Below, piece after piece: positions 19,584-62,959 of a DNA stretch of 64,000 nt (positions are counted from its first letter, which is position 1; each line of letters begins with the position of its first letter). A model generated the notes under the pieces. That model was not told where the DNA came from, searched no databases, and was given only the letters and a program-made list of their open reading frames with translations. Location of the stretch: NCBI RefSeq assembly GCF_900141795.1, contig NZ_FSRE01000002.1, forward strand, positions 124,001 to 188,000, read 5' to 3'. The stretch is from Sulfurivirga caldicuralii (GTDB lineage: Bacteria > Pseudomonadota > Gammaproteobacteria > Thiomicrospirales > Thiomicrospiraceae). Position numbers and translations under genes: made by a program.

Positions 19584-19602
19584 GGGGGTCCCCGACTTTT
19601 TT
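19584..19602 (+). repeat. Short post-stop repeat, copy A
   Basis: Five G, T, four C, then GACTTTTTT, beginning at the base after the stop codon of the DUF2818 gene. The same sequence recurs near 27493 (reversed), 35045, 50940 (reversed, inside lpd) and, less exactly, 57371 (reversed). Its function is unknown. Confidence 0.7.
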
Positions 19603-27492: not shown

Positions 27493-27513
27493 GAAAAAAG
27501 TCGGGGACCCCCT
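27493..27513 (-). repeat. Short post-stop repeat, copy B, with a partial inverted partner
   Basis: On the minus strand this reads AGGGGGTCCCCGACTTTTTTC and starts at the stop codon of the broken nnrS. A related inverted arm, CCCCTGACTTTTT (27458-27470), lies just below it, so the two can pair into a hairpin. The same stretch holds a weak stem GGGAA/TTCCC (27444-27460) that may help end gloA. Confidence 0.65.
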
Positions 27514-35044: not shown

Positions 35045-35064
35045 GGGGGGTCCCCGACTTTTTC
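35045..35064 (+). repeat. Short post-stop repeat, copy C
   Basis: GGGGGTCCCCGACTTTTTCA, starting one base past the panC stop. It is the same sequence and position relative to a stop codon as copy A. Confidence 0.7.
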
Positions 35065-35472: not shown

Positions 35473-35740
35473 GGCACCTCCGCAAAGTTTCTGAACGGTC
35501 GCGACCATGGCGATAGGGTCTAAGGCAAGGTGTGGCGAGTGCGGCACGGTCATTCCACGTAAGCGAGCCACAACGCCGCACTGGGCCAGAGTCGCCCTGG
35601 CCCTTCGGGTTGCGGCGGGATGGCGGCATCAGCTGTGTTGCTCACTTTGGATTTGGACTCTCCAACCCTGCGGCTCGTGCCTGGTATCTGCCGTCATCGC
35701 ACCGCAACGCAAGCGCATTCAGAAACCTTGCGCAGCTGCC
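35473..35740 (+). repeat. MITE-like inverted-terminal-repeat element, copy 1 (268 bp)
   Basis: Non-coding element filling most of the 341-bp gap between the divergent VOC and dapD genes. The left end reads GGCACCTCCGCAAAGTTTC and the right end, reverse complemented, GGCAGCTGCGCAAGGTTTC; both go on TGAA, agreeing over most of 23 bp. Internal blocks (CTGAACGGTCGCGAC, GGGTTGCGGCGGGAT, AAGCGCATTCAGA-like) recur in the copies at 57115 and 62527. Reading frames through it are spurious. It encodes no transposase. Confidence 0.8.
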
Positions 35741-35747
35741 TTATAAT
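35719..35747 (+). promoter_or_regulatory. Possible dapD promoter at the end of the repeat element
   Basis: A perfect TATAAT (35742-35747) starts 2 bp after the right end of the repeat. Any -35 box must lie inside the repeat: TCAGAA at 35719-35724 gives a 17-bp spacer but is a poor match. The dapD ATG is 41 bp downstream. Confidence 0.4.
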
Positions 35748-50611: not shown

Positions 50612-52384
50612 ATGAGCAAGATTGTGGATATTGTCCTGCCAGATATTGGTGATTTTGACGCCGTTGATGTGATTGAAGTGCTGGTTCAGCCCGGCGACAC
50701 CGTTGAAGTGGATGACTCGCTGATTACGCTGGAGTCCGACAAGGCCACCATGGAAGTGCCGTCGCCCCATGCCGGTGAAATTGTCGAGCTCACCGTCAAG
50801 GAAGGCGACAAGGTCTCCACCGGCGATGTGATCGGCAAAATGGCCCTGGCAGACAGCGAAACTGTTGAAAACAGCGAAAAAATGCCTGAAACCGCTGAAG
50901 AGCCCGCAGCGGCAGCGGCTGCCGAAAAAGCGGCCGCGCAAAAAGTCGGGGACCCCCTCCCTGAAGCGGATCAGCATGCCGAAGTGCTGGTGCTGGGCGG
51001 TGGGCCAGGTGGCTATACCGCCGCCTTCCGCGCCGCGGATCTGGGCAAGAAAGTGGTGCTGGTGGAGCGTTACCCGGTCATTGGTGGGGTGTGCCTCAAT
51101 GTGGGCTGCATTCCCTCCAAAGCGCTGCTGCACATGTCCGTGATTTTGAACGAAACCCGCGAACTGGCGGATCACGGCCTCAAGTTCGCCGAGCCGGAAA
51201 TCGATCTGGACAAGCTGCGCGACTACAAGAACGGGGTGATCAAAAAGCTCACTGGCGGACTGGCTGCACTGGCCAAGCAGCGCAAGGTGGACGTGGTGCA
51301 GGGCTACGGCCGTTTCACCAGTCCGCATACCGTCGAAGTCGAGCTGGCGGATGGTGGCACCAAGACCATTTCGTTTGACAATGCCATCATTGCCGCAGGC
51401 TCCCAGCCCATCAAGCTGCCGTTTATCCCCCACGACGACCCGCGGGTGATGGACTCCACCGATGCGCTGGAGCTGCCCGAGGTGCCCAAGCGCATGCTGG
51501 TGATCGGCGGCGGCATTATCGGCTTGGAAATGGCGCAGGTGTATGACAGCTTGGGTGCCAAGATCACCATTGTGGAGCTGGGCGACACCATTATTCCCGG
51601 TGCCGACAAGGATCTGACCAAGCCGCTGCTCAAGCGCATCAAGAAGCGCTACGAAAATATCTACCTCAATGCCAAGGTGACCAATGTGGAGGCCAAGCCG
51701 GAAGGCCTTGAAGTGACCTTCGAAGGCAAGAATGTGCCGCAGAAGGATACCTTTGACCGCATTCTGGTGGCGGTGGGACGCGCGCCTAATGGTCTCAGGA
51801 TCGGTGCCGAAAAGGCGGGTGTGGCCGTGGACGAACGCGGCTTTATCGCTGTGGACGAGCGCCAGCGCACCAATGTGCCGCACATTTACGCCATTGGCGA
51901 TATCGTCGGGCAGCCCATGCTGGCCCACAAGGCAGTGCACGAAGGCAAGGTGGCGGCGGAGGTCATCTGTGGCTTGCCGTCCGCCTTTACCCCCATGGGG
52001 ATTCCGTCCGTGGCCTATACCGATCCGGAAGTGGCTTGGGCGGGCAAGACCGAAGAGGAGCTCAAGGCCGAGGGCGTGGAATACGAAAAGGGCGTGTTCC
52101 CCTGGGCGGCGTCCGGTCGCAGCCTGAGTCTGGGCCGTGACGAGGGTATGACCAAGGCGCTGTTCGATGCCAAGACCCATCGCATTCTGGGCTGTGGAAT
52201 CGTCGGCCCCAATGCGGGCGAGCTGATTGCCGAAGCCATGCTGGCCATCGAAATGGGTGCGGACATGCAGGACATTGGGCTCACCATCCATCCGCACCCG
52301 ACACTGTCGGAAACCTTTGCGTTTGCAGCCGAGATGGCTGAAGGCACCATCACCGACCTGATCGCGCCGAAAAAGCGCAAGTAA
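50612..52384 (+). CDS. lpd: Dihydrolipoamide dehydrogenase with N-terminal lipoyl domain
   Basis: FAD enzyme (E3) reoxidising dihydrolipoyl groups with NAD. At 590 aa it is longer than ordinary Lpd because residues 1-80 form a lipoyl domain (Lys44 in ESDKATME), joined by an Ala/Glu-rich linker (about 82-122) to the enzyme. Then come VLGGGPGGYTAAFRAAD (FAD), GGVCLNVGCIPSK (redox Cys161 and Cys166), VIGGGIIGLEMAQ (NAD) and the C-terminal HPHPTLSE. Lipoyl-Lpd fusions are known in beta- and gammaproteobacteria. The linker contains a translated copy of the short dispersed repeat (50940-50958). Confidence 0.96.
   Translation: MSKIVDIVLPDIGDFDAVDVIEVLVQPGDTVEVDDSLITLESDKATMEVPSPHAGEIVELTVKEGDKVSTGDVIGKMALADSETVENSEKMPETAEEPAAAAAAEKAAAQKVGDPLPEADQHAEVLVLGGGPGGYTAAFRAADLGKKVVLVERYPVIGGVCLNVGCIPSKALLHMSVILNETRELADHGLKFAEPEIDLDKLRDYKNGVIKKLTGGLAALAKQRKVDVVQGYGRFTSPHTVEVELADGGTKTISFDNAIIAAGSQPIKLPFIPHDDPRVMDSTDALELPEVPKRMLVIGGGIIGLEMAQVYDSLGAKITIVELGDTIIPGADKDLTKPLLKRIKKRYENIYLNAKVTNVEAKPEGLEVTFEGKNVPQKDTFDRILVAVGRAPNGLRIGAEKAGVAVDERGFIAVDERQRTNVPHIYAIGDIVGQPMLAHKAVHEGKVAAEVICGLPSAFTPMGIPSVAYTDPEVAWAGKTEEELKAEGVEYEKGVFPWAASGRSLSLGRDEGMTKALFDAKTHRILGCGIVGPNAGELIAEAMLAIEMGADMQDIGLTIHPHPTLSETFAFAAEMAEGTITDLIAPKKRK
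50940..50958 (-). repeat. Short repeat, copy D, inside the lpd linker
   Basis: AAAAAGTCGGGGACCCCCT on the plus strand, the reverse of copies A and C, identical over 19 bases to copy B. It is read in frame as KVGDPL between the lipoyl and FAD domains of Lpd. Confidence 0.65.
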
Positions 52385-52446: not shown

Positions 52447-53349
52447 ATGGAAAACCTGACCCTGGTGGCTCTGTGTGTACTCATTGGCCTGCTGCTGCAG
52501 CGGGTGCATGTGTTCAAGGCAGCGCATGAAGTCCTGAATGCCTGGGTCATCTGGGTCGCACTGCCGGCGGTCATTCTGCATTATCTGCCGTTGCTGGCGT
52601 TCGATCAACGCCTGCTGGGGCTGATTCTGATCCCCTGGGTAACGCTGGCGCTGATTGCCGGGCTGGTGCTGTGGCTGGGTCGGCAGCTGGGCTGGTCGCG
52701 CAATACCATCGGGGCACTGCTCATGCTGGCGCCGCTGGGCAATACCTCCTTCCTTGGCATTCCCATGCTGCAGGCATTGCTGGGTGATCAGAGCATTCCC
52801 TATGCGCTGGTGTACGATCAGGCCGGTTCGTTTCTTGCAGTGGTCCTGTATCTGCCCTTTGTGGCGGCTTTTTACGCCGGCGATGGGGTATTCAGCTGGG
52901 GCAAGGTGCTGCGCAAGATGATCACGTTTCCCCCGATGATCGCAGCGTTGGTTACCTTTGCCACCTGGTCGTTGGATCGCCCTGTATGGCTGGAAGCCAA
53001 TCTGATTCGTCTGGCCGACACGCTGGTGCCCGTGGCGATGGTGGCCGTAGGGCTGCAGCTGAAGCTCAGCCTGCCGCAGGGACTGGGGCAGCCGTTTGCC
53101 GTGGGCATGCTGCTGAAGATGGGGTTGATGCCGCTTCTGGCATTATGGCTAATCCAGCTGCTGGACATGCGTGGCCTGCCGGCGCAGACGGCCCTACTGG
53201 AAGCGGCCATGCCCACCATGATTACCGCCGGGGTGGTGGCTGCCAGCCACAACCTGCAGCCACGCCTTGCTGCGGCCATGGTGGGGTGGGGCGTGCTCGT
53301 CTCGTTTGTAACCCTGCCGCTGTGGTCGCTGGTCGCCCAACAGCTCTAG
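52447..53349 (+). CDS. AEC family (auxin-efflux-carrier-like) transporter
   Basis: 300-aa membrane protein with about ten hydrophobic segments in the two-repeat layout of the AEC/BASS fold. Features are a first helix MENLTLVALCVLIGLLLQ, the conserved LAPLGNTSFLGIPML (Asn in the first repeat) and LVPVAMVAVGLQL plus EAAMPTMITAGVVA in the second. The substrate is unknown; relatives move organic acids or malonate. ATG at 52447 is preferred over the GTG at 52438; neither has a strong ribosome site, and the lpd terminator is immediately upstream. Confidence 0.85.
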   Translation: MENLTLVALCVLIGLLLQRVHVFKAAHEVLNAWVIWVALPAVILHYLPLLAFDQRLLGLILIPWVTLALIAGLVLWLGRQLGWSRNTIGALLMLAPLGNTSFLGIPMLQALLGDQSIPYALVYDQAGSFLAVVLYLPFVAAFYAGDGVFSWGKVLRKMITFPPMIAALVTFATWSLDRPVWLEANLIRLADTLVPVAMVAVGLQLKLSLPQGLGQPFAVGMLLKMGLMPLLALWLIQLLDMRGLPAQTALLEAAMPTMITAGVVAASHNLQPRLAAAMVGWGVLVSFVTLPLWSLVAQQL

Positions 53350-55759: not shown

Positions 55760-57115
55760 ATGAGAATCCATATTTTAGGCGTTGGCGGCACCTTTATGGG
55801 CGGGCTGGCACAGATTTTACAGGGGCTTGGACATCGGGTCACCGGCTCGGATGGCCCGCTGTATCCGCCCATGAGCGACCAGCTAGCCCAGGCTGGTATC
55901 GAGGTGTTCGGCTACGGAGAGCATGGCTGGATGTCGCCGGAACCGGATGTGGTGGTTATCGGCAACGCCTTGTCGCGTGGGCATGTGGATGTGGAAGCCG
56001 TGCTGAACCGCGGCTTGCGTTACACCTCGGGGCCGCAAATACTCAGCGAACTGCTGCTGCAGGATCGCTGGGTGGTGGGCATCGCCGGCACCCATGGCAA
56101 GACCACCACCTCCAGCATGGTAGCGTGGATTCTGGAATATGCGGGGTTGGCGCCCGGTTTCCTGATTGGCGGCGTACCGGAGAACTTCGGCCGATCCGCT
56201 CAGGTGGGGCAGGCGCCCTTTTTCGTGATCGAGGCGGATGAATACGACACCGCCTTTTTCGACAAGCGCAGCAAGTTCGTGCACTATCGTCCGCGCACCT
56301 GTGTCATCAACAATCTCGAGTTTGACCACGCCGATATCTTTGCGGATCTGCAGGCCATCCAGTGGCAGTTTCATCAACTGGTGCGTACCGTGCCGGGCAA
56401 TGGCCTGATTATTACGCCAGCCAATGAACCGGCCATAGACGAGACGCTGGCCATGGGGTGCTGGACGCCGGTGGTGCGCTGGGACGAGCGTCTGCAGGTG
56501 ATGCCGCTGGCTGAGGCAGGGTGGGAATTTGCGGTGCTGGATCGAGGCCAACAGGTCGGTGTGGTGCGCTGGCCATTGACCGGGGAACATAATCTCGCCA
56601 ATGCGGCCGCGGCGCTGCTGGCGGCTGAACATGCGGGCGTGCCACTGCCACTGGGGGTAGAAGCGCTGAACCACTTCAAGGGGGTGCGTCGGCGTCAGAC
56701 GCAGGTGGGCGAGACGGCAGGCGTGCGTATCATCGATGACTTTGCCCACCACCCCACCGCCATTGCCACCACGCTGGCGGGGCTTAAGGCGACGTTGCAG
56801 CCCGGCCAGCGCCTGCTGGCGGTGTTCGAGCCACGTTCCAATACCATGCGCATGGGTGTGCATGCAGCCCGCCTGCCCGAGGCCTTTGCCCCGGCGGATG
56901 CGGTATTTGCCTTTATCGACCCGGCCTGGGCCTGGCAGCTGCCGCCCTTTGCCGTGCCGCTTGCGACCGCGCCGGATTACGACACGCTGCTTAAGCAGCT
57001 GCTGGACGCCGTGCAGGTCGGTGATGTGGTGGTTTTCATGTCCAATGGGGCGTTTGGCGGCCTGCAGCAGGCCTTTTTGCAGGCGCTGCGCGAACGGGAA
57101 AAAAGCAAAGGATAG
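55760..57115 (+). CDS. mpl: UDP-N-acetylmuramate:L-alanyl-gamma-D-glutamyl-meso-diaminopimelate ligase
   Basis: Murein-recycling ligase that reattaches the recovered tripeptide to UDP-MurNAc. At 451 aa it resembles MurC: HILGVGGTFMGGLAQ (Rossmann, GTFMG as in Mpl), the ATP loop GIAGTHGKTTTSSM, VIEADEYDTAFFDKRSKFVHY and FAHHPTAI. It works in the same pathway as AmpD at 43488. Repeat element copy 2 begins at the last base of its stop codon. Confidence 0.95.
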   Translation: MRIHILGVGGTFMGGLAQILQGLGHRVTGSDGPLYPPMSDQLAQAGIEVFGYGEHGWMSPEPDVVVIGNALSRGHVDVEAVLNRGLRYTSGPQILSELLLQDRWVVGIAGTHGKTTTSSMVAWILEYAGLAPGFLIGGVPENFGRSAQVGQAPFFVIEADEYDTAFFDKRSKFVHYRPRTCVINNLEFDHADIFADLQAIQWQFHQLVRTVPGNGLIITPANEPAIDETLAMGCWTPVVRWDERLQVMPLAEAGWEFAVLDRGQQVGVVRWPLTGEHNLANAAAALLAAEHAGVPLPLGVEALNHFKGVRRRQTQVGETAGVRIIDDFAHHPTAIATTLAGLKATLQPGQRLLAVFEPRSNTMRMGVHAARLPEAFAPADAVFAFIDPAWAWQLPPFAVPLATAPDYDTLLKQLLDAVQVGDVVVFMSNGAFGGLQQAFLQALREREKSKG

Positions 57116-57367
57116 GCACCCCCGCAAAGCCTCTGAATGATCGCGACAGTGGCGATTATGGTTCAAGGCGAGGCGTGGTGAGCGAAGCATGATGAGTCCA
57201 TGTGAGCGAAGCACAACGCTGCATTGCACCAAAATCGTCCTGTCCCTCCGGGTTGCGACGGGACGGCAAGATTTCAGTGAAGCGCCTTTAGACGACATTC
57301 TGATCAAGAGTGCTTGTCGCGGACAAACCAGCAATGCGAGTGCATTCAGAGGTTTTGTGGGGGTGCC
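57115..57367 (+). repeat. MITE-like inverted-terminal-repeat element, copy 2 (253 bp)
   Basis: Fills the gap between the converging mpl and epmC genes. Left end GGCACCCCCGCAAAGCCTC and right end reverse complement GGCACCCCCACAAAACCTC, both continuing TGAA, match at 21 of 23 positions. It shares internal blocks with copies 1 and 3 (TCGCGAC, GGTTGCGACGGGA, GTGCATTCAGAG) but is more diverged in the middle. No coding content is seen. Confidence 0.82.
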
Positions 57368-57370
57368 TGT

Positions 57371-57387
57371 AAAGTCGGGGACACCCT
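57371..57387 (-). repeat. Short post-stop repeat, copy E (variant)
   Basis: On the minus strand AAGGGTGTCCCCGACTTT, a few bases after the epmC stop. It differs from copies A-D by GTG in place of GGG and a shorter T run, and lies 3 bp from the right end of MITE copy 2. Confidence 0.5.
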
Positions 57388-62526: not shown

Positions 62527-62796
62527 GGCATCTTCACAAAGCCTCTGAACGGTCGCGACAGTGGGGATTCCGGTTCAAGACAAGGCGCACCGAACGTGGC
62601 ATGGTCATTCCATGCGAGTAAGGTGCAACGCTGCTTTGGGCCGGAATCGCCCTGTCCCTGTGGGTTGCGGCGGGATAGCGGCATCTTCTATGTTGCGCGT
62701 CTTGCCTTTGGCGCCCCAAAGGCTGCGCCGTGCGCCTTGAATCTGCCACCATCGCGTCAGCAACGCGAGCGCATTCAGAGTCTTTGCGAAGATGCC
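62527..62796 (+). repeat. MITE-like inverted-terminal-repeat element, copy 3 (270 bp)
   Basis: Occupies most of the 387-bp gap between folD (minus) and tRNA-Pro (plus). Left end GGCATCTTCACAAAGCCTC and right end reverse complement GGCATCTTCGCAAAGACTC, both continuing TGAA, agree at 21 of 23 positions. It is similar to copy 1 along its length. Frames through copies 1 and 3 give the same spurious peptide start (SRRNP, then GQGDSGP), showing the same orientation. No clear target-site duplication is visible. Confidence 0.85.
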
Positions 62797-62882: not shown

Positions 62883-62959
62883 CGGAGTGTAGCGCAGCCT
62901 GGTAGCGCACCTGTTTTGGGTACAGGTGGTCGGGGGTTCAAATCCCTCCACTCCGACCA
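62883..62959 (+). tRNA. tRNA-Pro (anticodon TGG)
   Basis: 77 nt with CCA encoded. Acceptor stem CGGAGTG/CACTCCG, anticodon stem CCTGT/ACAGG, loop TTTGGGT with anticodon TGG (62917-62919), T loop GTTCAAATC. Confidence 0.97.

Follow-up and report, generated by a model that had tools for sequence, protein, structure and literature searches.

The sequence located at positions 62527 to 62796 (plus strand) of the window, by which we denote the whole stretch of 64,000 nucleotides that was analysed (contig 6, 124001-188000, of an assembly comprising 1,673,283 bases), is a complete two-armed copy of a non-autonomous DNA transposon of the MITE type. It belongs to a genuine family whose members in the window have inverted ends matching at 20 to 21 of 23 positions, a length of 253 bp to 270 bp and no transposase gene. 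The original prediction of a non-autonomous transposon is supported by the number of copies, by their base pairing, by an empty site, by target duplications of 4 bp and by insertion sequences with matching ends in a relative. MITE status is in itself ordinary, and bacterial MITEs are usually described species by species, as deletion remnants of one insertion sequence. Beyond this, several kinds of transposon ends seem to be carried by one and the same structured core. We consider it likely that the family is explained as a whole by a MITE which would be mobilised in trans by an IS5-type enzyme and which would harbour a structured arm module that is recognised as such and acquires new ends.

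Window copies and the architecture of the core

The three elements predicted in the window prove to be placed exactly. They align over their full length with a mean column identity of 82%, share one orientation and, as had been claimed, carry no gene. The inverted ends of about 23 bp that had been ascribed to them were recovered by direct reading, with 21 of 23 matching bases in copies 2 and 3, as predicted, and 20 of 23 in copy 1. Copy 3 (270 bp), defined by the alignment, its fold and arm-model matches, is located between folD (minus strand) on one side and, downstream, a neighbourhood of three tRNA genes with tRNA-Pro at 62883. Its left terminal inverted repeat, GGCATCTTCACAAAGCCTCTGAA (62527-62549, plus strand), is complementary at 21 of 23 positions to the right one (62774-62796, minus strand; read from the sequence). 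Within these ends, a bulged hairpin arm (62559-62656, plus strand), which was part of the training set of the arm covariance model R2 and is matched by it with 78.1 bits (E 1.1e-20), is accompanied by a second arm in inverted orientation (62665-62762, minus strand; R2, 75.5 bits, E 6.4e-20).

Copy 1 (35473-35740, plus strand, 268 bp) is likewise two-armed and lies between a divergent minus-strand gene and dapD (NCBIfam). Model R2 matches its left arm (35505-35601, plus strand) with 41.1 bits (E 1.5e-9) and its right arm (35610-35707, minus strand) with 39.4 bits (E 4.8e-9). Immediately beyond its right end follows a TATAAT hexamer (35742-35747, plus strand), the presumed -10 box of dapD. Copy 2 (57115-57367, plus strand, 253 bp) has mpl (plus strand) on one side and the gene for EpmC (minus strand) on the other. 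Its left arm (57147-57244, plus strand; R2, 62.4 bits, E 6e-16) belonged to the training set as well, while the right arm is degenerate and not matched by R2. The claim that all three copies are intergenic applies to copies 1 and 3. Copy 2 reaches one base into mpl: the stop codon TAG of this gene (57113-57115) takes its G from the first position of the inverted repeat, and the insertion hence sits precisely at the end of the gene. One further match of the arm model, on the minus strand at 53206-53292, is weak (18.8 bits, E 0.0077) and probably due to chance.

The core is composed of two inverted copies of the bulged hairpin arm around a small central hairpin, CCCTTCGGG, and the ends form an enclosing stem. 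Fold z-scores amount to -3.15 for copy 1, -7.10 for copy 2 and -7.75 for copy 3. With the complete alignment as input, RNAalifold failed to recover the left arm; the structure used here is that of a single-sequence fold, which was then tested against slid and shuffled controls. Pairing, for which selection had been suspected, is strongly supported by this comparison: in the copies of the genome under study (n=16) 84.2% of the cells are paired, compared to 36-40% with slid partners, and in a broad set of 71 arms from 38 loci the value is 85.8% (35-41% slid), with 1006 double-change cells against 319 after shuffling. Arms compared across genera gave 76.6% paired cells and a covariation score of 0.596 (0.180 shuffled), in a set which was picked from folds and is biased to that extent. 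The stems vary freely but keep their pairing, in contrast to the internal loop, CAAGGC / CAACRC, which hardly changes. On its 5' side the 71 arms agree in C (69/71), A (70/71), G (70/71), G (69/71) and C (66/71), on its 3' side in A (65/71), A (70/71), C (70/71) and G (70/71). Since left arms align with reverse-complemented right arms, the element represents an inverted pair of one unit. Such an inverted pair, spaced by 5-8 bp, is present in most loci, and other loci contain a single arm in an element of about 160 bp.

The observation that the two ends co-vary within a copy could be reproduced, with GGCATCTTC at both ends of copy 3 and GGCACCCCC at both ends of copy 2. This fits selection for pairing, from which, as far as the ends are concerned, gene conversion or template switching is not separable.

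We would like to mention a second repeat in the window, AAAGTCGGGGAC (longer form AAAAAGTCGGGGACCCCC), of which there are five copies (19588-19599, 27497-27508, 35050-35061, 50942-50953 and 57371-57382) compared to 0.15 expected. One of them begins 4 bp past copy 2 of the MITE, and at other places (loci L005 and L010) the repeat likewise flanks MITE copies.

Genomic copies, target sites and related insertion sequences

Three copies within one window had been taken to imply many in the genome and, indeed, a BLAST search of the genome with copy 3 as query yields 27 matches, and a profile built from 16 full copies yields 27 distinct strong places. The remaining profile matches are mostly the same places on the opposite strand because the element is quasi-palindromic. 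Genome-wide, both orientations occur. In three congeneric genomes we found no match, one match and one weak match, respectively; as the family is nearly absent there, its expansion is recent or lineage-specific. A pattern of the own-type ends found no match in a scan of 84,980 genomes other than the one under study. Forms with internal deletions exist in this genome (70 bp at C6:403937-404006, which is merely two bare ends, and about 95 bp at C4:60859) and in the relative G012 (48 bp and 155-160 bp, with the ends kept).

Evidence for mobility is provided by the flanks. Exact target duplications of 4 bp surround 4 of 20 copies in the genome under study, compared to 0.21 expected, and 5 of 8 copies in G012, compared to 0.14 expected (permutation p <0.0002 in both cases), while flank repeats of 2, 3, 5 or more bp do not exceed chance in either set and none of 5 bp is present. 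The duplications include CTTA, TTAG, TTAT, TCAG, ATTA, GAAT and AATA and fit YTAR, the 4-bp target typical of the IS5 group, in part. An empty site, too, had been named as a check and was found in the sister species G001 at the dapD promoter. There, the interval between a glyoxalase-like gene and dapD measures 72 bp and contains the same TATAAT but no element, whereas at the dapD site of the window the flanks sum up to 73 bp, to which the 268 bp of copy 1 are added. An outward TATAAT within 25 bp is present at 5 of 40 element ends, compared to 2 of 1396 control windows (controls that include coding DNA), which suggests that insertion beside promoters is common.

A transposase gene with the same ends, named as a further check, was found in the relative G076 and not in the genome under study, where a search confined to Pfam DDE_Tnp_1 returned no transposase of that family. 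At least three insertion sequences (995-1259 bp) are present in G076, a member of the related genus g6. Their ends read GGGAACCTCGAATAACC or differ slightly from it, and GGGAACCTCGAATAACC is identical at 16 of 17 bases to the class-A MITE ends GGGCACCTCGAATAACC of the same genome. The intact one encodes an IS5-family transposase of 350 amino acids (NF033581, E 7.8e-81). None of these matching-end insertion sequences shows an intact 4-bp duplication of its own. In G012, which also belongs to genus g6, 88 ends of the form GGGCACCTCGATTAACC are present at no more than one mismatch. The MITE shares its ends with such insertion sequences (NCBIfam NF033581 group) but differs from them in that they are autonomous by virtue of their DDE transposase and lack the arms. 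From the similarity of the ends we infer mobilisation in trans by an IS5-type enzyme, most strongly for G076. The ends of the family in the genome under study have only GGCACCTC and an AACC(T/C)CTGA-like stretch in common with the insertion-sequence ends of G076 and, because this similarity is limited, the label "IS5-derived" is applied here by extension. In the G076 insertion sequences, a palindrome, ACCAGGCCTGGT, is located just within the right end; it is shared by G012 DNA (L110, L118, L120, L094) and may constitute a separate signal.

Spread of the arm, its different ends and competing explanations

The arm covariance model, which was built from 27 arms, matches 137 of 369 genomes of the class (108 of 271 genera) and 118 of 398 genomes of the phylum, many of the latter in one family of another class. 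Among the matches listed, the exact arm pattern occurs in Stutzerimonas, Gilvimarinus, Microbulbifer, Marinobacter, Thioalkalivibrio, Candidatus Thiodiazotropha, Salinisphaera and Rhodocyclales. It is also present, among the matches listed, on a contig filed under a Bifidobacterium breve MAG (L217, CAMDLG010000088.1), which is probably a binning contamination from a proteobacterium. Three element types were sought in a plasmid collection, without a match.

In relatives, the same architecture is found with other sequences and other ends, namely of the GGGCACCTC, GGGTCTGTTGACAATTC, GGAATCTCTGATTAA and GTGTAGCTTCC types, and the terminal repeats fall into unrelated classes. Most of the observed elements of the GGGTCTGTTGACAATTC type have TA on either side. 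The core of the G022/G061 elements matches the core studied here at the level of sequence (E ~1e-33) while the ends differ. One chromosome, that of G016, contains two-armed elements with the unrelated end classes GTGTAGCTTCC and GGAACCTCTGATTGAATC (L060, L076) and thus shows directly that one core can occur with different ends. No earlier description of this core, of a core shared between different ends or of end swapping was found in the open literature, to which the search was confined, and novelty is therefore provisional.

Mechanistically, an IS5-type DDE transposase acting in trans would bind the terminal repeats and cut out or copy the element, insertion would take place at AT-rich 4-bp targets, often beside promoter -10 boxes, and the transposase would by now be missing from the genome under study or be present in unrecognised form. 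The arm would be read by a factor of the host or of transposition. The form that is read would more likely be DNA (a cruciform, or a single strand during replication) than a single RNA strand, and the module may have spread through Pseudomonadota by taking the ends of different insertion-sequence families.

Some of these observations could also arise in other ways. Were the family an ordinary MITE which arose when one insertion sequence lost its internal part, the similar cores elsewhere would be separate, convergent hairpins caught by a covariance model which rewards any perfect hairpin of the right size. Covariance models do reward any complementary pair, and hairpin folding is common among MITEs (PMC10969869), but pairing does not demand the near-invariant loop bases which 65-70 of the 71 arms have in common, nor does convergence readily account for the inverted order of two closely spaced arms in most loci or for the agreement of the G022/G061 core, which is detected by sequence alone. 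Moreover, more than 230 genomes remain without a match in each of the two surveys, that of the class and that of the phylum, and we consider convergence very improbable. It could further be argued that ends and arms remain complementary through template switching or gene conversion, acting between the inverted repeats during replication, instead of through selection on structure. Template switching is known to act on long inverted repeats, the ends co-vary within copies, and mismatches in the genome under study are without strand bias, all of which this explanation accommodates. Conversion between the arms would, however, erase the mismatches of the internal loops, and as these loops not only persist but form the best conserved columns, we regard it as unlikely that such a process is responsible.

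The original prediction had also named a structured RNA element. In this reading the element would be, first and foremost, a regulatory RNA with a structure of its own or an RNA-processing site (an RNase III substrate, an attenuator or an sRNA), and its dispersal by transposition would be secondary. In its favour, the RNA folds of the window copies are very stable, covariation is strong, the internal loops are conserved, and Correia elements are cleaved by RNase III (PMC10969869). In addition, G.U exceeds A.C in the broad arm set (153 versus 73, or 111 versus 73 without one conserved pair), although the model used to choose and align this set rewards G.U, and the set receives contributions from both arms and thus from opposite strands. 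In the stems of the genome under study, in contrast, G.U and A.C are equally common (123 versus 111, p 0.47; by helix 20/21, 57/51 and 46/39), which would not be expected if one RNA strand were selected. Together with the bias of the broad set, this equality favours recognition as DNA. Furthermore, the element is quasi-symmetric between strands, which fold alike, so that the same RNA motif cannot be formed by both of its arms, and genomic copies occur in both orientations. Rfam identifies only tRNAs in the window, nothing in 14 related loci and nothing for copy 3 at E up to 1. The reading as an RNA is thus unsupported in this genome and, in our judgement, distinctly unlikely.

Correia elements and other known repeats

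One of the known repeats close to the family is the Correia element (CREE / NEMIS) of Neisseria. Like the family, it is a short MITE of intergenic regions; its inverted ends measure about 25 bp and its core is palindromic, and a copy from N. gonorrhoeae contains the blocks CAAGGCG, CGCAGG and GCAACRCMG in this order with 22 of 22 bases matching. None of 20,000 Markov simulations reaches this value, in a test whose blocks were taken from the arm consensus and whose gap limits were set with Correia in view. In contrast to the element described here, Correia possesses a single arm region, a length of 155 bp, a longer apical part and ends TATAGTGGATTAAC with TA termini, while the present element exhibits ends GGCACCTCCGCAAA and a 4-bp duplication in place of Correia-type ends and a TA target. 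The arm covariance model does not match Correia, be it with filters on or off, and an ungapped arm profile responds weakly, with 45 of 2000 shuffles scoring as high. A phage collection contained no match to Correia. Correia thus looks like a putative relative of the element. Binding of IHF, outward promoters and processing by RNase III have been described for Correia (PMC10969869).

QMITE1 and QMITE2 of Coxiella, ERIC and MITEAba12 are, by description, similar to the present family in being repeated, gene-less, bounded by terminal inverted repeats, capable of folding and located near genes (PMC5896051, PMC10969869). Duplications of 7-11 bp for QMITE2 and of 2-4 bp for QMITE1 are given for Coxiella, and AAGGC is absent from the sequences printed in the text of that paper (PMC5896051). 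Integron attC sites were considered as well and rejected on reasoning, since the arm base has GTT outermost, opposite to the arrangement in attC as it is generally known. REPINs consist of two inverted hairpin units which form one mobile unit, as is the case for the element described here; they are linked to RAYT (Y1) transposases and lack DDE-type inverted ends and target duplications. The inverted ends and 4-bp duplications of the present element set it apart from REPINs. Uptake repeats of the DUS type known from Neisseriaceae are not among the frequent words of the window.

More tentatively, and with a probability that in our view falls somewhat short of even, the bulged arm, single or as an inverted pair, may define a passenger superfamily across Pseudomonadota which would comprise more than 100 genera and of which the Correia element of Neisseria would be an early-described member. 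Such a superfamily would repeatedly acquire the ends of different insertion-sequence families and would be kept by selection on a recognition site in the internal loop for a conserved host or transposition protein. If this is true, many unannotated repeats, possibly Correia elements among them, join one superfamily, and two questions become directly accessible to a test, namely for what reason bacterial MITEs fold and by which protein the fold is read. For annotation, the arm model itself is a practical tool. As a minor observation, two sequences deposited as plasmids in PLSDB (L152, NZ_CP119140.1, and L153, NZ_CP119142.1) are assigned to N. gonorrhoeae and, with about 2.17 Mb, are of chromosome size; each of them contains at least 40 Correia copies.
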